DNA of 64,000 bases from Streptomyces sp. P3 (GTDB taxonomy: Bacteria; Actinomycetota; Actinomycetes; Streptomycetales; Streptomycetaceae), in contig NZ_CP028369.1 of the NCBI RefSeq assembly GCF_003032475.1, forward strand, positions 5,642,001-5,706,000. Reading direction: 5' to 3'. Below the pieces are notes generated by a model. That model worked only from the letters and a program-made list of their open reading frames with translations, ran no database searches and had not been told where the DNA came from. The position numbers and the translations under genes are program-made. Below are positions 12,809 to 22,580 of this stretch, piece by piece (position 1 is the first letter of the stretch; each line of letters opens with the position of its first letter).

Positions 12809-13522
12809 ATGAGCCCCCGAGACCCGCACACCGAAGCCAGCGTCGGCGCGACTGATTTCGCAGGTCAGCCCAGGCGCAGCGACGCGGAGCGCAACCGGGG
12901 GCGGATCATCGCCGCCGCGCGCACGGTCTTCGGGCGCGACGGGCTGAACGCGTCGATGGCCTCAGTCGCACGGGAGACCGGGGTCGGGATCGCCACCCTC
13001 TTCCGCCACTTCCCCCGCAAGGAGGACCTGCTCGCCGCGGTCTTCGCCGACCGTATGAAGGCATACGCGCAGGCCACCGACGCAGCCCTGGCCGATCCGA
13101 ACCCGTGGCACGGCTTCACCGGCTACATCGAGACCGTCTGCGCGATGCAGGCCGCCGACCGCGGCTTTGCCGACATCCTGACCATGAACTTCCCGGGCGT
13201 TCCGGAGCTGGAGAGATACCACGCTCAGGCGTACGAGGGCTTCCTCGAACTCATCGGCCGCGCCAAAAACAGCGGGCAACTGCGCGAGGACTTCACCAGC
13301 CGCGATCTCGTGCTGCTGCTGATGGCCAACGCCGGAGTCCTCAGCGCCACTGCCGATGCCGCCCCGGACGCCTGGCGCCGCCCGGTCGCCTGGATGATCC
13401 AGTCCTTCCAGGCTCCGACCCGCGGCCCGCTGCCGGACCCGCCGGAAGACGCTGCGCTGTACGAGGCCATGCGCCGCGCCAGCCAGAGCGCCATCGCCCC
13501 CGAGACGGGAAAGCCACGCTGA
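12809..13522 (+). CDS. TetR-family repressor
   Basis: A 237-residue TetR regulator. The N-terminal HTH (about residues 28-75) reads IIAAARTVFGRDGLNASMASVARETGVGIATLFRHFPRK when taken in parts: helix 1, then the recognition segment ending in LFRHF. The C-terminal ligand domain is of the common SDR-associated type. The ATG at 12809 has no Shine-Dalgarno; a TAGTCT box ends 6 bases before it, so the mRNA may be leaderless. It is divergent from the SDR gene and most likely represses both through the three 16-bp palindromes between them. The inducer is unknown. Confidence 0.9.
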   Translation: MSPRDPHTEASVGATDFAGQPRRSDAERNRGRIIAAARTVFGRDGLNASMASVARETGVGIATLFRHFPRKEDLLAAVFADRMKAYAQATDAALADPNPWHGFTGYIETVCAMQAADRGFADILTMNFPGVPELERYHAQAYEGFLELIGRAKNSGQLREDFTSRDLVLLLMANAGVLSATADAAPDAWRRPVAWMIQSFQAPTRGPLPDPPEDAALYEAMRRASQSAIAPETGKPR

Positions 13523-13598
13523 ACCAGCGACCGGTGGGACAGGGCGACCGCGATGAGGCCGTACATCGGAGTGATCTTGTCGGTGGTCGGATCCGACC

Positions 13599-13814
13599 TT
13601 GGAGATCATCAAGCGCACCGACGACATGACAGGGTTCGTGGTGCTGCCGAGGCGGTGGGTGGCAGAGCGCACGTTTGCATGGCCGATGAACTCCCGCCGT
13701 CCGGCCCGTGATTACGAGACCCTGCCCGCCGCCGGCGAGGCGATGATCCAGTGGTCGATGGTCACGCGGATGAGCCGGCGTCTGGCACGGCCACGGGCCG
13801 CCGGCCGGCGCTGA
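13599..13814 (+). pseudogene. IS5-family transposase C-terminal remnant
   Basis: About 70 codons reading [18 protein letters not shown] then VAERTFAW, the C-terminal block of IS5-group transposases. The Glu of the DDE triad lies in [10 protein letters not shown]. The D-containing parts, the terminal repeats and any second end were not found, so this is a relic. A perfect 14-bp palindrome (GGTCGGATCCGACC, 13585-13598) abuts its left edge; I cannot tell whether it belongs to the element. Confidence 0.75.
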
Positions 13815-14211
13815 ATGCCCCCGACGCCTCCAGAAGGAGCCACCCGCGCTCCGCCAGGCGCCTGGCTTTCGGCCGCAGAAACCGCAGGCCAGCCCGGACG
13901 CCACGAGCCCGCGAAGACCGTGAAACGAGCCGAAACCCTCACCGAACATATCCGCCTGAAACAGCGGCGAGGTTAAAGATCAAGCTGAGTCCGCATGACA
14001 CCAGATCCGTACGCCATGTCACCAGCAACGCGTGGGGCGTTGCTGTTGCCACCATCGGCTATCTGAGTTGCACGGCGGCCGGCACCCCAGTGTTGACCTG
14101 TCCGGCTGGCCGCTCGCCAAGGATCGCCGTCCAGCAGGCTTCGTGCACGCGCCCGCCGCACGCGGTGCCGGCCGCCGGAGGCCGGGTCTCGAATCGTCTC
14201 CCCAAGCACAC
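13815..14211. other. Gene-free stretch between IS relic and AKR
   Basis: About 400 bases without a convincing gene. A short rightward frame ending at about 13975 (AETLTEHIRLKQRRG, then stop) looks protein-like but is not identifiable. The stretch also holds the hairpin at 14023-14045 and leads into the MerR-type promoter. Confidence 0.4.
14023..14045. terminator. Stem-loop, possible terminator
   Basis: CAGCAACGC and GCGTTGCTG form a perfect 9-bp stem around the loop GTGGG. It could insulate the following AKR promoter from upstream transcription. There is no T-run. Confidence 0.45.
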
Positions 14212-15567: not shown

Positions 15568-16104
15568 GTGCGGAGGGCCCCGCACTCAACTCGCGCTCTG
15601 ACCACCACACATCGCCCACCATCTCGAACCCCTCGCCGTCTGAAGCCGGTAGTGGCACAACGTCCGCGCGCAGCTACTGGAGCGACTCACCGACGTCCCC
15701 ACTCCGGCCGGGCCGATCCCCGACAGATCGGCATCCCCGCTCAGGCCACCCTGCTGCCGGTCATTGAGATCAACCGGAAGCCGACAGGGCAGTAGCGCTT
15801 ATCTGCCCAGCCGGTGCCGGGGCCTTGGGTCAAGGCCCCTCTTGGAGCTCCTGGCAAAGGCGCTGGACGCGCCCCCGGAAGTCGAAGTCGAAGGCGGCGA
15901 TGAAGCAGGAGCCGCGTAAGCAGCGGCGGCGACTCCAGGACGCCGGGAAGCGCCGCCTCGCCGCCGCGCCGGCCCGCTCCTGGCAGAACCGGATCGGCGA
16001 CGCGGTGGCGCGCCGCGTTGTCCGCGCCCTGTCCCGGGTGCGGCGCTCCACCGCCTGGCTGTGAGGTGCCCGGGCTCGGTTGTGAACCAGGTCCACCTCG
16101 GCAG
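15568..16104. other. Mostly gene-free stretch with one small basic ORF
   Basis: More than 500 bases between merR and the MMPL control region. Apart from the small frame at 15900-16064 I see no gene, hairpin or repeat. Open frames on the minus strand are Arg/Pro/Ser-rich shadows typical of GC-rich DNA. Confidence 0.4.
15900..16064 (+). CDS. Possible small basic protein
   Basis: A 54-codon frame starting MKQEPRKQRRRLQDAG and ending RRSTAWL, very rich in Arg and Lys. GAAGG lies 9 bases before ATG. It matches no family I know. It may be a real small nucleic-acid-binding protein or a chance frame in GC-rich sequence; the absence of Pro/Gly-rich bias is mildly in its favour. Confidence 0.25.
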   Translation: MKQEPRKQRRRLQDAGKRRLAAAPARSWQNRIGDAVARRVVRALSRVRRSTAWL

Positions 16105-16175
16105 GTGTAGTGGGCTACACCCCCGGTTCGGGAGGGCGCTCCCTCGTGGCGTCACGCTGCCGACGGAATCGTGGA
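16105..16175 (+). promoter_or_regulatory. Twin-palindrome control region A (MMPL)
   Basis: GTGTAGTGGGCTACAC (16105-16120, 6-bp arms) is followed by GGGAGGGCGCTCCC (16130-16143, 5-bp arms) and by GGAATCGTGGA (16165-16175). All three elements recur with exactly the same spacing at 18700-18770, upstream of the next unit, while the bases between them differ. This points to two operators and a transcription-start element kept by selection. The binding protein is unknown; the neighbouring NarL-type regulator is a candidate. Confidence 0.7.
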
Positions 16176-16289
16176 GGGCGGCAGAAGGACCCCTCCCAGC
16201 TCCCCTTTGAACAGGGGCGTACATCCCACAGAGGCGGTTCTTCGACTTTTCGCCGTTCCTGAACCGCTGATGTGGAGGCGTATCCCGCC

Positions 16290-18524
16290 ATGGCAACTGT
16301 TCTCTATCACCTGGGTCGCGCGGCCTTTCGGTGGCGCTGGTTCGTGACCTTGTTGTGGGTGGCGGTGCTGGGCGCCGTCGGTTTCGCCGCGTCGAAGGCG
16401 CCCGCCGCCGCGGACGAGGGCTTCACCATGCCCGGCATCGAGTCGCAGAAAGCGTTCGACCTGCTGGAGCAGCGCTTCCCCGGCTCGGCAGCCGACGCGG
16501 CGAGCGCCCGGATCGTGTTCGTGGCACCGAGCGGTGAGAAGGTCACCGCCACCGAGAACAGAAGGGCCGTCCAACACCTCGTCGACGAGGCCGCCGAAGG
16601 CTCCCAGGTCGCCGGCGCCGTCGACCCCTTCCAGGCGAAGGCGGTGAGCAGGGACGGTACGACGGCGTACGCGACCGTCAGCTTCAAAACCGGCGCCGCC
16701 GATCTGACCGACGGGAGCAAGGAGCACCTGGAGCGCGTCATCGACGGGGCCCGGGACGCGGGCCTGACCGTCGAGGTCGGCGGCGACGCGCTGGCCGCCC
16801 AGCCCTCTGCGGGCGGCGCGGCCGAGGTGATCGGCATCGCGGTGGCCGCCCTCGTCCTGCTGATCACTTTCGGGTCGATGGCCGCCGCCGGGCTGCCGCT
16901 GCTGACCGCGATCCTCGGTGTCGGCCTCAGCATGGCCGGGATCACGGCCGTGTCGGAGGCGTTCGGCCTGTCCGAGAGCACCGGCACGCTGGCCACCATG
17001 CTCGGTCTGGCCTGCGGCATCGACTACGCCCTGTTCGTCGTCTCCCGGTATCGGGAGGAGCGCGCGAAGGGGCGCACGCCGAGGGAGGCAGCAGGTCTCG
17101 CCGTCGCTACGGCCGGTGCAGCGGTCGTCTTCGCCGGTCTCACGGTCGTCATCGCACTGGCCGGGCTGTCCGTCGTAGGCATTCCGCTGCTCACCAGGAT
17201 GGGACTCGCCGCCGCTGCCGCGGTCCTGGTGGCGGTGCTGGTGTGTCTGACGCTGGTCCCGGCCGTCCTCGGCTTCTGGCCGAACGCCGTTCTCGCGCGC
17301 GGCGCCCGCCGCAACTCCCGGCGCTACCGCAGGAAGCAGCGCAAGGAGGACAACGGCGGATCTCGCTGGGCGCGCATCGTCGTACGCCACCCGCTGCCCG
17401 TCCTGCTGCTCGGCGTCGTGGGGCTGGGTGCCGTTGCCGCACCCGTCCTTGACCTCCAGCTCGGCATGCCCGGCGACGAGGCCAAGCCCACCTCCACCAC
17501 CGAGCGCCGCGCGTACGACGCTCTGGCCGAGGGCTTCGGTCCCGGCTTCAACGGGCCCTTGACGATCGTTGTGGACGCCCAGGGCTCCGCGGACCCGAAG
17601 GCGGCTGTGGCAACGATCGCGAAGGATGTTCAGGCCACGGACGGGGTCGTCTCCGTCTCGCCGGCCCGCTTCAACTCCGCGGGTGATACCGCGGTGTTCT
17701 CCGCCGTCCCGTCCACCGCTCCCACGGACGAGAAGACCAAGGATCTCGTCACCGCCATCCGTGACGAACGCCCCGGCATCGAGTCCAACGCCGGCGCCTC
17801 CTTCGAGGTCACCGGAAAGACCGCGCTGGACATCGACGTCGCCGAAAAGGTGCAGGCCTCCCTGATGCCCTATCTGGCGGTCGTGGTGGGACTCGCCATC
17901 GTCCTGCTGCTGGTCGTGTTCAGGTCCCTGCTGGTGCCGGTGAAGGCCGCGTTCGGGTTCCTGCTGTCCGTCCTCGCGGCGCTGGGTTCGGTGGTGCTGG
18001 TATTCCAGCAGGGTCACGGCGCCGACCTGCTGGGCGTGGAGTCCACCGGGCCGATCATGAGCATGATGCCGATCTTCCTGGTGGGCATCGTCTTCGGTCT
18101 CGCCATGGACTACGAGGTGTTCCTGGTCTCGCGGGTGCGCGAGTCCCACGTTCACGGGGACGCGGCCAGGACGGCGATCGTCTCCGGGTTCAAGCACAGC
18201 GCCCGGGTGGTCGGGGCCGCCGCGCTGATCATGATGGCGGTCTTCTCCGGCTTCGTCGGGGCCGGCGAGTCGATGATCAAGATGATCGGGTTCGGGCTGG
18301 CCATCGCGGTCCTGTTCGACGCCTTCGTCGTCCGCATGGCGATCGTCCCCGCCGTCCTGTCCCTCCTCGGTGACAAAGCCTGGTACCTGCCCCGCTGGCT
18401 GGACCGGCTGCTGCCCGACGTCGACGTCGAGGGCGAGAAGCTCAGCCGCAAGGTTCCCGCACCGACGGGTTCCGCCGCCGACCCCGACGAGCGGCCGCTG
18501 GCAGAGCCCGTCCCCATCCGCTAG
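16290..18524 (+). CDS. MMPL-family RND exporter
   Basis: A 744-residue inner-membrane transporter of the MmpL/ActII-3 type, thought to export lipids or hydrophobic compounds using the proton gradient. Layout: TM1 near residues 15-35, an extracytoplasmic loop, five TMs around 180-350, a second TM and loop, then five TMs up to about 710. Both repeats carry the conserved proton-relay Asp: GLACGIDYALFVVSR (Asp245) and GLAMDYEVFLVSR (Asp607). ATG 16290 has GGAGG at 16274-16278; a GTG at 16272 is too close to that site. Expression likely depends on twin-palindrome region A. The cargo is unknown. Confidence 0.92.
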   Translation: MATVLYHLGRAAFRWRWFVTLLWVAVLGAVGFAASKAPAAADEGFTMPGIESQKAFDLLEQRFPGSAADAASARIVFVAPSGEKVTATENRRAVQHLVDEAAEGSQVAGAVDPFQAKAVSRDGTTAYATVSFKTGAADLTDGSKEHLERVIDGARDAGLTVEVGGDALAAQPSAGGAAEVIGIAVAALVLLITFGSMAAAGLPLLTAILGVGLSMAGITAVSEAFGLSESTGTLATMLGLACGIDYALFVVSRYREERAKGRTPREAAGLAVATAGAAVVFAGLTVVIALAGLSVVGIPLLTRMGLAAAAAVLVAVLVCLTLVPAVLGFWPNAVLARGARRNSRRYRRKQRKEDNGGSRWARIVVRHPLPVLLLGVVGLGAVAAPVLDLQLGMPGDEAKPTSTTERRAYDALAEGFGPGFNGPLTIVVDAQGSADPKAAVATIAKDVQATDGVVSVSPARFNSAGDTAVFSAVPSTAPTDEKTKDLVTAIRDERPGIESNAGASFEVTGKTALDIDVAEKVQASLMPYLAVVVGLAIVLLLVVFRSLLVPVKAAFGFLLSVLAALGSVVLVFQQGHGADLLGVESTGPIMSMMPIFLVGIVFGLAMDYEVFLVSRVRESHVHGDAARTAIVSGFKHSARVVGAAALIMMAVFSGFVGAGESMIKMIGFGLAIAVLFDAFVVRMAIVPAVLSLLGDKAWYLPRWLDRLLPDVDVEGEKLSRKVPAPTGSAADPDERPLAEPVPIR

Positions 18525-18634
18525 CCGCAACCGCGCGGCCGCCTCTGAGGGCGGTCGCCCTCGACCGGGGCCGCCGAAGCGGCGGCAGCCCCGACGCGCC
18601 GCGCCCGTGGGGACAGGGGCGGCGCGATCCAGGG

Positions 18635-18673
18635 CCCGGCGGCCGGAGCTTTACCCCAGCTCCGGCCGCCGGG
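18635..18673 (+). terminator. Strong hairpin after MMPL gene
   Basis: CCCGGCGGCCGGAGCT and AGCTCCGGCCGCCGGG form a perfect 16-bp stem with the 7-base loop TTACCCC, 110 bp after the MMPL stop. It should end that transcript and separate it from the following unit, which has its own control region. Confidence 0.8.
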
Positions 18674-18699
18674 ACCGCGGACTTGGCCGGGGGCACGGG

Positions 18700-18770
18700 G
18701 TGTAGCCCGCTACACCCCCACCTCGGGAGGGCGCTCCCTCGTCCCGGCCGCTGGCCCAAGGAATCGTGGA
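18700..18770 (+). promoter_or_regulatory. Twin-palindrome control region B
   Basis: GTGTAGCCCGCTACAC (18700-18715), GGGAGGGCGCTCCC (18725-18738) and GGAATCGTGGA (18760-18770) repeat region A with identical offsets of 25 and 60 bases. A further half-site, CGCTACACCCCC, occurs near 18825. It stands upstream of the decayed permease and the secreted esterase. Confidence 0.7.
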
Positions 18771-18852: not shown

Positions 18853-19140
18853 ATGAACATCACGGTCGCCGTGGTATTGGCGCTCGCCTCCATCGCCGCC
18901 TACGCCGCCGCGGCCGCGACGCAGCACCGCGTCGCCTCCACCGACGGGCATGGGGCTGCGACGCCTGTTGGCCGGCCCCGCCTGGTGGGCGTCGAACGCC
19001 GCCAATGCCACGGGCGCGGCGCTGCACGTCGCCGCCCTCAAGTACGGCCCGCTCACCCTTGTCCAGTGCCTCGGCGCGCTGACCATCACAGCCGCCGTCC
19101 CGCTCGCCGCCCGCGGCGCCGGACGCCGCGTCAGCCGCGG
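18853..19140 (+). pseudogene. Decayed DMT/EamA-type permease
   Basis: From ATG 18853 one frame reads MNITVAVVLALASIAAYAAA then TQHRVAST, a membrane N-terminus with the QHR motif of small DMT-family permeases. Homology then passes into another frame near 18945 (LLAGPAWWASNAANATG, ALKYGPLTLVQCLGAL, then TAAVPLAARGAGRRV) and ends in Arg-rich noise. A frameshift plus loss of the last two thirds makes this non-functional. It still sits behind an intact control region, so the region may now serve the esterase. Confidence 0.7.
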
Positions 19141-19267
19141 CGGACGGCGCCCGAGCCCACGTCACTCATGGCCCCGCCCACACCGCTCCGGCCCCGCGGT
19201 CCCCGGCAAGCGGCCGCCTTACATACCCGGGCCTCGCGGGAGCGACCCAACCGGAAAGCAGGACCCT

Positions 19268-20200
19268 TTGAAGACGACCCATCTCCGGACCGTACTGGTA
19301 GGCGTCCTCGTCACCTGCGGCACACTGGCCACCGTGGTCGGCGTCGCCCACAGCGAGCACGACCAGGCCCAGGCCGCCCCCGCTGCCAAAGGCCCGTACG
19401 TCGCCCTCGGCGACTCCTACACAGCCGGCCCGAAGATCCCCGGCCAGACCGGCGCCCCGGCCGGCTGCGACCGCTCCGACCGCAACTACCCGTCACAGGT
19501 GGCCTCCCGGCTCGGCGTGGCAGACACCGACTTCCGTGATGTCAGCTGCAGCGGCGCCCCCATCGCCGACCTCACCCAGCCACAGACCACAGATCAGGGC
19601 ACCAACGCGCCCCAACTCTCGGCGCTTTCACCGAAGACCCGGCTGGTCACCCTCGGCATCGGCGGCAACGACATCGGTTTCGGCTCGATGATCAAGCGGT
19701 GCGGCACGATGGGGCTGGCGTACCAGGCCCTCGGCAGCGGCAAGTACATCCCCGAGGACACCCTTTGCAGGGGGCACTACGTCCACCGTCGCACCGACGA
19801 GCTGGAGCGGATGATCGACGCCGCAGGCGAACGGCTGGCCGGCGCGCTGACGGAGATCAACCGCCGCGCGCCCCAGGCCCGGGTCTACGTCGTCGGCTAT
19901 CCGGCGATCCTGCCCGCAGACGGCGCCGACTGCGGCGGCGAACTGCCCCTCGCGCCCGGCGACATGAGCTACCTGCGGGAAAAGGAGCAGCAGCTCAACA
20001 GCGAGCTGCGGGAGCGGGCTCGGGCATCCGGAGCGGTGTACGTCGACACGTACCGTCCGTCCGAGGGGCGCGACGCCTGCTCGGACGCGGCCACCCGCTG
20101 GATCGAACCCCTTGTCCCCAGCAGCCCGGCCGCGGCCGTCCACCCCAACGAGCGAGGCGAACGCGGTATGGCGGACGCCGTGCTGGACGCACTCAGGTGA
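19268..20200 (+). CDS. Secreted SGNH-family esterase/lipase
   Basis: A 310-residue exported hydrolase. The frame extends upstream into the dead permease, so the TTG at 19268 (AGCAGGA before it) is chosen because it starts a typical signal peptide: KTTHLR, a hydrophobic core VLVGVLVTCGTLATVVGV, and cleavage near QAQAA. SGNH blocks: GDS (Ser50), the later Gly, GIGGNDIGF (Asn) and His292 in AAVHPNERG. Several paired Cys suggest disulfides, as in the Streptomyces lipase/phospholipase group. The likely job is hydrolysis of lipid or short esters outside the cell. It converges on the response regulator, 19 bp away. Confidence 0.9.
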   Translation: MKTTHLRTVLVGVLVTCGTLATVVGVAHSEHDQAQAAPAAKGPYVALGDSYTAGPKIPGQTGAPAGCDRSDRNYPSQVASRLGVADTDFRDVSCSGAPIADLTQPQTTDQGTNAPQLSALSPKTRLVTLGIGGNDIGFGSMIKRCGTMGLAYQALGSGKYIPEDTLCRGHYVHRRTDELERMIDAAGERLAGALTEINRRAPQARVYVVGYPAILPADGADCGGELPLAPGDMSYLREKEQQLNSELRERARASGAVYVDTYRPSEGRDACSDAATRWIEPLVPSSPAAAVHPNERGERGMADAVLDALR

Positions 20201-20219: not shown

Positions 20220-20879
20220 TCAGGTTCCTTTCCTGTAAGGGTCGTTGAGGTAGGCCAGCACGGCGAGGACCCGGCGGTGCCCGCTGTCGCTGGGCGGCAG
20301 GTGCAGCTTGAGGAAGACGTTGCCGATGTGCTTGCTGACCGACCGCTCGGTAATGACCAGCGTGCTGGCGATGGTGGCGTTTGCGTGCCCTTCGGCCATC
20401 AGCTTCAGCACCTCGCGCTCGCGCGGGGTGAGGGAGTCCAGCGGTGAGTCCCGGCGGCGCGTCAGCAACTCGGTCACCACCTCCGGATCCAGCGCCGTAC
20501 CGCCGGAGGCGACCCGCTCCAGGGCCTCCAGGAACTCGTCGACCCGGCCCACCCGGTCCTTGAGCAGGTAACCGACGCCGCTTGCCCCGTCGGCCAGCAA
20601 CTCGGCGGCGTACGACTCCTCGACGTACTGGGACAGGACCAGCACCGGCAGCCCCGGGATCTGCTGCCGGGCGTCCAGAGCCGCCCGCAGGCCTTCGTCG
20701 CGGAAGCAGGGCGGCATCCGTACGTCCAGCACGGCCGCGTCCGGGCGGTGATGCAGCAGCGCGGGCATGATCTCCGGCCCGCTGCCGGCCACGGCCACGA
20801 CCTCGTGCCCGGCCGAGGTCAGCAGCAGCACGAGCCCTTCCCTGAGCAAGGCGTTGTCCTCGGCGATCACCACACGCAC
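20220..20879 (-). CDS. NarL/LuxR-type response regulator
   Basis: A 219-residue regulator. The receiver domain begins VRVVIAEDNALLREGL, has the phosphoacceptor Asp52 in AAVLDVRMPP and Lys in GYLLKDRVG. A GerE-type HTH follows (SLTPREREVLKLMAEGHANA). GTG 20879 gives a typical start and has AAAGGA 10 bases upstream; longer starts run back into the kinase gene. It lies downstream of the sensor kinase on the same strand, so the pair is co-transcribed. A conserved GTG/GCC context around the start is duplicated at the kinase end (18-bp direct repeat). Confidence 0.93.
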   Translation of the reverse strand: MRVVIAEDNALLREGLVLLLTSAGHEVVAVAGSGPEIMPALLHHRPDAAVLDVRMPPCFRDEGLRAALDARQQIPGLPVLVLSQYVEESYAAELLADGASGVGYLLKDRVGRVDEFLEALERVASGGTALDPEVVTELLTRRRDSPLDSLTPREREVLKLMAEGHANATIASTLVITERSVSKHIGNVFLKLHLPPSDSGHRRVLAVLAYLNDPYRKGT

Positions 20880-20943
20880 GGCAGGCCCGTCCTTTTCCAC
20901 GTCGGTCTCGTCCCCGCCGGCTCGGTCACCACACGCACGGCAG
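20867..20943. repeat. 18-bp direct repeat at kinase/regulator junction
   Basis: TCACCACACGCACGGCAG occurs at 20867-20884 and again at 20926-20943, 59 bp apart. One copy lies over the regulator start, the other over the kinase stop. It could allow slippage or deletion, or be the trace of a small duplication. Confidence 0.6.
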
Positions 20944-22080
20944 CTCCACGGCAATCATCGTCGGTCCCCCCTTGGGACTGGTCACGGTCACCTCACCGTC
21001 CATAGCGGCGACGCGCCGCCGGACGCCGAGCAGTCCGGTGCCGCTGTTCTCGTCGGCTCCGCCCAGGCCCTCGTCCCGGATGACGGCCCGCAATCCGCGG
21101 GGGACGCGCTCCAGCTGAACGGTCGCGCGCCGCGAACCGCTGTGCTTGGCGGCGTTCGTCAGCGCCTCGGCCACCGCAAAATACGCCGCCGCCTCCACCG
21201 CCGCCGGAGCCCGCGGCCCCTCCTCCAGCCCGCCGTCCACCCGCACGGTCACCTCCAGCCCACTGCCGGCCGCCAGCGCCCGTACGGCGCCGACGAGACC
21301 GCGGTCGGTGAGGATCGGCGGGTGAATGCCGCGTACTACCTGCCGCAGCTCGGTCAGCGCCTCCTCGGCCTGCTCCTGGGCGTCGTCGAGGAGTTTGCGG
21401 GCCGCCTCGGGATCGTGGCCATAGGCGCGTTTCGCGAGCCCGATCCGCATGGACAGGGCGACCAAGCGGGCCTGTGCCCCGTCGTGCAGGTCCCGCTCGA
21501 TGCGGCGCAGCTCGGCGCCGTGTGCGGCGATCGCGTCCGCCCGGGTGGCGGCCAGCTCCTCGACCCGCGCGGCCAGCAGCGCCCGGGGCGAGGGCTTGAG
21601 CAGGGCCTGCGACCAGCGGGCCTCCAGGTCGGCGAGGCGGGTGATCAAAGGCAGGACGACCGCCCCGCGACGCCCGAGCCCGCACCACACCCCGTCCACG
21701 ACCAGGCCCAGCGGCCACAGCGGCAGCGCCACGCACAGCAGGGCGCCATAGACGTATGAGGCAGCCATCCAGCGCAGGTCGAGGAAGGTGCCCGGGTCAT
21801 GGACGGCGATGCGCAGGCGCTCGCGCAGGGTGCCGGTGATCGGCCGGTAAGCCTCCGGGATGTGCCGGCCCGTCCAGGCGGCCGTCAGAGCGCGTTTCGC
21901 GCCGGCGATCCGGCGGATCAGCAGCACCGTCTCGGGCAGCATCCACGCCCCGACCACGACAACCGTGCCGACGGCCGTGATCAGCAGCACGGTGATGAAC
22001 AGGTACAGGCCGAAGGCCAGCGCTGCGGCCACGAGCAGATGGAGCGTGGCCCGCGCTGCCTGCCGGATCGTTCTGCCCAT
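20926..22080 (-). CDS. NarL-partner sensor histidine kinase
   Basis: A 384-residue membrane kinase. Two TM hairpin regions lie at about residues 12-46 and 105-132 with hardly any extracytoplasmic domain. The HisKA_3 dimerisation domain carries the phospho-His199 in IERDLHDGAQARL. The ATPase domain has EALTNAAKHSG (N box) and GTGLLGVRRRV. ATG 22080 directly precedes TM1; earlier in-frame starts add only Arg/Pro/Ser-rich sequence. Its short extracellular loops suggest sensing within or near the membrane, which fits a cluster with an exporter and an esterase. The signal is unknown. Confidence 0.92.
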   Translation of the reverse strand: MGRTIRQAARATLHLLVAAALAFGLYLFITVLLITAVGTVVVVGAWMLPETVLLIRRIAGAKRALTAAWTGRHIPEAYRPITGTLRERLRIAVHDPGTFLDLRWMAASYVYGALLCVALPLWPLGLVVDGVWCGLGRRGAVVLPLITRLADLEARWSQALLKPSPRALLAARVEELAATRADAIAAHGAELRRIERDLHDGAQARLVALSMRIGLAKRAYGHDPEAARKLLDDAQEQAEEALTELRQVVRGIHPPILTDRGLVGAVRALAAGSGLEVTVRVDGGLEEGPRAPAAVEAAAYFAVAEALTNAAKHSGSRRATVQLERVPRGLRAVIRDEGLGGADENSGTGLLGVRRRVAAMDGEVTVTSPKGGPTMIAVELPCVW

Positions 22081-22151
22081 GGCGGCAAGGCTACGGCCTG
22101 GGGGAACGGATGTGATCGTTCGTGGGCGTGCGGGCCTCTGACGTACCGGGT

Positions 22152-22580
22152 TCATGGCGCCGTGTACTCCTTCACCGAGGGCTCTTCGAGGGGGAGCGGG
22201 CACAACGGCAGTTCCGCGACGACTTCGAATCCGCCCCGGGGCCGATGGCCCGCGCGCAGACGGCCCCCGGCCGCGTGGGCGCGTTCGTGCATGCCGATGA
22301 GCCCGTGGCCACTGTGGGGGAAGGCCCGGTCGGCCGGCGCAGTGCTTGCACTGTTGGTGCGGTGATGGACAGCAGATCGTGGCCGTGGGTGAGCCGTACC
22401 TCGGCCGTGCCGGTCGTGGCGTGCTTGGTGACGTCGGTGAGTGCCTCCTGCACGATCCGCGAGTGCCTCCTGCACGATCCGGTAGGCCGTGAGGTCCGTC
22501 CCGGCGGGAAGAGGCCGTGGTTCTCCCTCGCCGGTGAGGGAGACAGTGAGCCCGACACTGGCTCCGCGGAAATCGTGGAA
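22152..22580 (-). pseudogene. Dead second histidine kinase, C-terminal part
   Basis: Pieces of a NarL-type kinase ATPase domain appear in two frames on the minus strand: TDLTAYRIVQEAL, then (other frame) VQEALTDVTKHATTGTAEVR and HGHDLLSI, then back in the first frame to HGLIGMHERAHAAGG and GGFEVVAELPL. The first shift is caused by a 22-bp tandem duplication at 22439-22482. The G1 region is lost and everything N-terminal of about 22580 is missing. It is a relic of a second two-component system beside the live one. Confidence 0.8.
22439..22482. repeat. 22-bp tandem duplication in kinase relic
   Basis: A 22-bp unit beginning GAGTGCCTCCTGCACGATCC is present twice in direct succession (22439-22460, 22461-22482; last base differs). 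Because 22 is not a multiple of three it shifts the reading frame of the former kinase. Confidence 0.85.

Follow-up and report, generated by a model that had tools for sequence, protein, structure and literature searches.

Conserved two-palindrome elements upstream of membrane-protein genes are linked to a NarL-type two-component system in Streptomyces

Two copies of a composite DNA element, each with two palindromes and a downstream start element, are present in the window, the 64,000-nucleotide stretch of Streptomyces sp. P3 (NZ_CP028369.1, positions 5,642,001 to 5,706,000) that was analysed here. Judged from sequence comparison, each copy would be an activator-dependent promoter of a Streptomyces NarL-type regulon, which is directed at the cell envelope and is autoregulated in some species; we assign this reading a probability of roughly 0.7. 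No description of the element or its regulon was found in the open literature, with most subscription journals outside the coverage, and the set of co-regulated cell-envelope genes thus appears to be undescribed so far.

The first palindrome, GTGTAG-N4-CTACAC, begins at 16105 and again at 18700, and in both copies it is followed by GGGAGGGCGCTCCC at offset +25 (16130 and 18725) and by GGAATCGTGGA at offset +60 (16165 and 18760). The identical offsets of +0, +25 and +60 that the earlier note had reported are exact. Alignment of the two copies yielded a common block that is larger than first noted and consists of GGTGTAG...CTACACCCCC, TCGGGAGGGCGCTCCCTCGT, and A-GGAATCGTGGA. Identity is mostly limited to the elements and their immediate borders, and the spacers have diverged, in agreement with the same note. 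The parts of the two copies are as follows.

16104 to 16121, no strand: palindrome 1 of copy 1, GGTGTAGTGGGCTACACC; predicted centre at -66.5; outer G and C in 73/73 sites
16130 to 16143, no strand: palindrome 2 of copy 1, GGGAGGGCGCTCCC; predicted centre at -42.5; abuts the -35 position
16144 to 16149, plus strand: -35 position of copy 1, TCGTGG; poor TTGACA match; 17-bp spacer to the -10 hexamer
16165 to 16175, plus strand: putative start element of copy 1, GGAATCGTGGA; from conservation and from the register by comparison
16167 to 16172, plus strand: putative -10 hexamer of copy 1, AATCGT; predicted transcription start at about 16179
18699 to 18716, no strand: palindrome 1 of copy 2, GGTGTAGCCCGCTACACC; from pattern match and conservation
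18725 to 18738, no strand: palindrome 2 of copy 2, GGGAGGGCGCTCCC; from pattern match and conservation
18739 to 18744, plus strand: -35 position of copy 2, TCGTCC; from conservation in relatives
18760 to 18770, plus strand: putative start element of copy 2, GGAATCGTGGA; from conservation and from the register by comparison
18762 to 18767, plus strand: putative -10 hexamer of copy 2, AATCGT; predicted start at about 18774

The count of palindrome 1 alone is unremarkable in the window (two matches with up to two mismatches against 0.95 expected, and at least two in 21 of 100 shuffles); it is the joint spacing that stands out. Within the 9,851,971-bp genome, exact palindrome 1 matches occur at these two places only, and a search of the whole 9.85 Mb with the joint 39-mer at up to three mismatches likewise returned only the two window copies. 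The further copies that had been expected from a genome scan are therefore absent from this genome but present across the genus. The GTDB-species contig collection was scanned with the exact pattern, so that its counts refer to exact sites only, and it gave 71 further sites in 69 loci, 68 of them titled Streptomyces and one titled “Actinobacteria bacterium OK074.” With up to two mismatches the joint pattern is present in 74 of 392 genus genomes (123 sites), whereas the reversed pattern gave 0 matches in the same 392 genomes. A family sample of 61 genomes, 51 of them from other genera, contained three genomes with a match, one of which lies outside the genus; the 2-mismatch site from another genus of the family is locus L119. 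In a position weight matrix (PWM) trained on 72 distinct sites, both window copies among them, these copies scored +89 and +83, compared to -9.7 for the next-best window position and at most -9.1 for five shuffled windows.

Since the pattern itself was used to retrieve the 69 loci, the invariance of the specified bases is given by construction and only the unspecified bases count as evidence. Across 73 sites (the 71 plus the two window copies), G at -1 and C at +16 occur in 73/73 each, and TCGT at +39 to +42 is kept in 71, 72, 72, and 65 sites. Further downstream, C+59 is found in 67, G+60 in 66, G+61 in 67, A+63 in 68, G+66 in 64, T+67 in 68, and C+74 in 62 of the 73 sites. This conservation speaks for the proposal that the elements are kept by selection; as judged from the compared sequences, the element is under selection and common to many Streptomyces.

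The genes around and behind the two copies are listed below.

16290 to 18524, plus strand: MMPL-family exporter, 744 aa (PF03176, E 1.5e-99), predicted target of copy 1
18853 to 19260, plus strand: DMT/permease-like remnant, frame disrupted early, most of the middle deleted
19268 to 20200, plus strand: secreted SGNH/GDSL esterase, 310 aa, TTG start (PF13472, E 3.4e-25; signal-peptide-like N-terminus)
20220 to 20954, minus strand: NarL-type response regulator, proposed binder; ORF as listed (PF00072 and PF00196)
20926 to 22080, minus strand: sensor histidine kinase, 384 aa (PF13796 membrane sensor, HisKA_3, and HATPase)

The nearest solved structures of the exporter are those of MmpL3 (E 1e-58), and its score of 223.5 against the MmpL3 model is far below the cut-off of 1400. 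The earlier note had placed copy 2 directly before the esterase gene, which is not the case: the DMT-like gene starts at 18853 and the esterase gene at 19268, so that the first gene of copy 2 is a broken DMT-like permease, followed by the esterase. Copy 2 now probably drives transcription through the dead gene into the esterase gene, which leads by another route to the pairing of exporter and esterase that the earlier note had proposed. The counterpart of the permease in locus L015 has 315 aa and a PF05653 match below its cut-off; the NCBIfam DMT_1 match of the DMT/permease-like gene is also below its cut-off. The esterase carries the motifs GDS (48), GGND (132), and HPN (292), and its nearest structure is PDB 1esc (E 1.3e-19), the S. 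scabies esterase. The response regulator combines a receiver domain (PF00072, E 2.9e-14) with a GerE/LuxR HTH domain (PF00196, E 1.2e-14), and its nearest solved structures are DevR and VraR, whereby DesR ranks lower. The kinase (HisKA_3 PF07730, E 1.8e-16; HATPase PF02518, E 1.6e-07) has a catalytic core closest to DesK (E 1e-13). Its ORF is open upstream to 22770 with a likely start at 22080, and the kinase and regulator ORFs as listed overlap at 20926-20954. By hydropathy the kinase has three hydrophobic stretches, the first of which (residues 8-56) could hold two helices, and a sizeable extracytoplasmic domain is absent, as the earlier note had suggested. Upstream of the kinase gene, the region 22100-22480 appears by eye to be a C-terminal remnant of another histidine kinase, close to which a 20-bp GGATCGTGCAGGAGGCACTC stretch is repeated. 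A TetR gene is located at 12809-13522, and the stretch between it and the MMPL gene (13560-13815) looks like what is presumably an insertion-sequence transposase remnant.

In order to describe the genes behind the relative sites, the first downstream ORF was called by a simple GC3 rule for 65 of the 71 sites (6 remained without a call), and the first genes were grouped by BLAST, mostly judged by eye. These comprise 39 small membrane proteins, 16 MMPL exporters, 2 DMT-like permeases (L015 and L063), 2 kinases, and 6 others, namely 2 alcohol dehydrogenases and 4 singletons. The twin sites before the alcohol-dehydrogenase genes, in L014 (assigned by Pfam) and L051, are outside the membrane theme. 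The small membrane proteins of 54-165 aa form one BLAST-linked group, for which Pfam gave no match in four in-frame members and a hit far below the cut-off in a fifth. The family has 378 homologs at E<=0.001, and among the 120 homologs listed the names are uninformative, one of them including “integral membrane protein.” No gene of this family was found in the P3 genome itself, where the search lacked a positive control. At sites from species of the potato-scab group (L013, L022, L032, and L037), the first gene likewise encodes a small membrane protein. With regard to the proposed tie between exporter and esterase, the order site, MMPL, SGNH esterase occurs in a row in L020, L028, L052, and L056; in L016 a small-protein gene follows the site, then MMPL and SGNH esterase; L015 and L046 have a DMT-like gene between MMPL and esterase, like the window. 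The tie therefore recurs in other species, but copy 2 in the window primarily serves the permease gene. The commonest first gene elsewhere encodes the unnamed small membrane protein.

Of the 69 site loci, 20 contain an ortholog of the window kinase or regulator (at least 60% identity; L051 has a partial regulator match only), compared to about 0.06 expected. Among the 66 genomes with both site and regulator, 31 have the two at most 10 kb apart on the same contig (0.28 expected), and 30 at most 5 kb apart. The remaining 35 show no such proximity, and since 16 of these have at most 10 contigs, broken assemblies alone do not explain the missing linkage. Of the 52 genomes with a close regulator (at least 380 bits), 49 carry a site, versus 25 of the 340 others. 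At E<=1e-88, 8 of 74 site genomes are without the regulator, and 47 of 113 regulator genomes are without a site at up to two mismatches. Because many of the species are closely related, Fisher values for this co-occurrence overstate independence and the physical linkage is the stronger test. A twin site was found with a softened PWM in 9 of 30 regulator loci (about 1.5 kb on each side), so that autoregulation is not general; a PWM scan of the window detected no twin site at the window's own kinase promoter. An (S or H)-K-H-I-G stretch, presumably within the recognition helix, recurs in nearly all of the regulator orthologs that were read; it is different in the two nearest paralogs of the P3 genome (L104 and L105), which have no twin site nearby. 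Overall, the local NarL-type system is tied to the elements by linkage and co-occurrence, as the earlier note had supposed, and the neighbouring two-component system most likely controls the sites on the basis of these comparisons.

Further insight came from L106-L118, the regulator regions of 12 of the 47 siteless genomes and of G019, a genome with a 2-mismatch site elsewhere. Clear diverged twin sites (PWM 44 to 85) are located upstream of the kinase gene in L106, L107, L110, L111, L112, and L113, compared to -9.5 for the highest of 15 shuffled controls. The twin site of L117 scores lower (PWM 31), L109, L114, and L116 have weak sites only (PWM 8 to 16), and in L108, L115, and L118 the regulator is present and the PWM recognised no site. 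In five of the six clear cases (L106, L107, L110, L112, and L113) a divergent small-protein gene lies beyond the site.

The two palindromes are unlike in sequence, and palindrome 1 may therefore belong to another factor. In that case palindrome 2, at the -35, would be the site of the NarL-type regulator, whereas palindrome 1 would be that of an unlinked regulator, for instance of the TetR or GntR type, and the promoter would integrate two signals. We regard this as possible but rather doubtful. It is in line with the difference between the palindromes outside their AG-N4-CT core and with changes in some loci: L082 and L089 have a decayed palindrome 1 beside a largely preserved palindrome 2 and -10, and palindrome 2 is shifted in L106, L107, L110, and L111, where palindrome 1 is largely the same. 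Also, a TetR gene with 71% identity to that of the window adjoins the twin site in L006. However, the spacing is fixed, the AG-N4-CT core is common to both palindromes, and, among the window regulators searched, the TetR recurs in this 1 of 69 loci and the MerR in 0 of 69, compared to 20 of 69 for the two-component pair. The paired positions of palindrome 1 in 91 sites show 2 matched, 1 unmatched, and 18 one-armed changes; both arms are changed alike in L112 and L114, but with one-armed against matched changes at 18 to 2, two-arm symmetry was dropped as support for palindrome 1.

The promoter register was deduced from six copies that precede a kinase gene (L003, L039, L045, L066, L080, and L084). 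These carry TAGNNT, the canonical -10 consensus, as TAGCGT, TAGGGT, or TAGCCT, at +62 in five copies and at +63 in L084; the same -10 is present at +62 in L054 and L117, though their sites do not face the kinase gene. The aligned first residue of the kinase is at +74 in L003, L039, and L080 and at +75 in L045, L066, and L084, which, as expected, fits a leaderless transcript in these six loci. The hexamer at +62/+63 together with the kinase start at +74/+75 marks the element as a predicted promoter, and the comparison supports the suggestion of a probable start element in that GGAATCGTGGA would contain the -10. If the start is set at +74, the centres are -42.5 for palindrome 2 and -66.5 for palindrome 1. 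TCGTGG, the hexamer expected as the -35 (+39 to +44), is a poor match, and the -10 of most copies is the non-canonical RATCGT. By this comparison, the layout is that of a class-II activator, with the operator centre near -42 beside a weak -35.

Palindrome 2 abuts the -35, which is a position that repressors also use, and the palindromes might instead be paired operators at which the regulator or some other factor acts as a repressor until a signal relieves it. This is unlikely, since the poor -35 and the RATCGT hexamer fit an activator-dependent promoter, and class-II activators usually bind with their centre near -42.5. A transcribed RNA element (attenuator or riboswitch) of two hairpins is very improbable: the inverted repeats could fold and both hairpins appear in the MFE structures, but folding is not clearly better than in shuffles (z 0.25 and -1.34), no Rfam family matches (best E 0.2, far below gathering), and in the six kinase-facing loci the canonical -10 lies downstream of both palindromes with the kinase start at +74/+75. 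The structured RNA reading is thus disfavoured by the Rfam and folding results. A recent segmental duplication without regulatory meaning, which the short distance of 2.6 kb between the copies in this genome could suggest, is refuted by conservation, as the elements are identical while the bases between them have diverged and the same elements stand before different genes in 69 other loci.

For the activator-dependent promoter, we propose that the neighbouring kinase, with its membrane helices as the sole sensor, would phosphorylate the response regulator. A regulator dimer on palindrome 2 would then act as a class-II activator next to the poor -35, and a second dimer or a partner would occupy palindrome 1, whereby RNA polymerase would start about 12 bp past the first base of the RATCGT hexamer. 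That the regulator is the binder and acts as an activator is suggested by linkage and layout, and one protein may bind both palindromes. The outputs would be the MMPL exporter (in some species together with the SGNH esterase), the DMT-like permease, and small two-helix membrane proteins, in some species also the kinase operon itself; membrane or envelope upkeep would be a role consistent with these genes. Going further, we tentatively suggest an undescribed membrane or envelope response: a single NarL-type regulator might recognise both palindromes, dissimilar apart from their AG-N4-CT core, as a fixed two-dimer unit. The main output of this response might be the small protein with two membrane helices (about 60 aa), whose gene is often oriented divergently to that of the kinase and which may exert feedback on the kinase, and the exporter, esterase, and permease units might have been added by promoter copying. 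The two-component system hereby gains a precise predicted DNA code and a predicted target list in dozens of species, and the small-membrane-protein family, in which five in-frame members gave no Pfam family above its cut-off, gains a likely regulator and context, as do the MMPL exporters.

Several known systems resemble parts of this arrangement. MacRS is also a Streptomyces NarL-type two-component system, which responds to membrane-active compounds; the MacR motif TGAGTAC-N2-GTACTCA matches neither palindrome. Membership in MadRS, as modelled in NCBIfam, was rejected (MadR 100.4 versus a cut-off of 300, MadS 41.6 versus 500). DasR binds dre sites, the listed ones being 16-mers such as agtggtgtagaccacc, some of which contain ggtgtag (PMC4398421) and thereby resemble one arm of palindrome 1. 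In contrast to the 16-bp dre element with its GGT..ACC arms and no long spacer, palindrome 1 is 18 bp long and its arms GGTGTAG and CTACACC stand 4 bp apart, and a dre element was rejected due to the wrong spacing. In two papers, the literature matches to site-like sequence turned out to be DasR sites and a sequencing primer.

The system shares with the envelope-stress systems LiaFSR/VraSR a NarL-type regulator, a short-sensor HisKA_3 kinase, and predicted envelope targets, and VraR is among the closest solved structures to its regulator. Membership in the LiaS family was rejected (Strep_LiaS model, 37.6 bits versus a cut-off of 450), and no LiaF-like protein was detected among the eight window ORFs scanned with Pfam. 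DesR, once phosphorylated, occupies a pair of neighbouring sites upstream of des. In DesK/DesR of Bacillus subtilis, the membrane domain is the kinase sensor and the regulator activates its target promoter (PMC3996569). The window system differs in that the membrane region of its kinase is unlike that of DesK and its regulator is nearer to DevR and VraR. A desaturase was not recognised in the set of 65 called first genes (BLAST groups, mostly judged by eye). It is similar to DesK/DesR in that the predicted kinase sensor consists, by hydropathy, of membrane helices without an extracytoplasmic domain, and DesK has the nearest solved kinase core.
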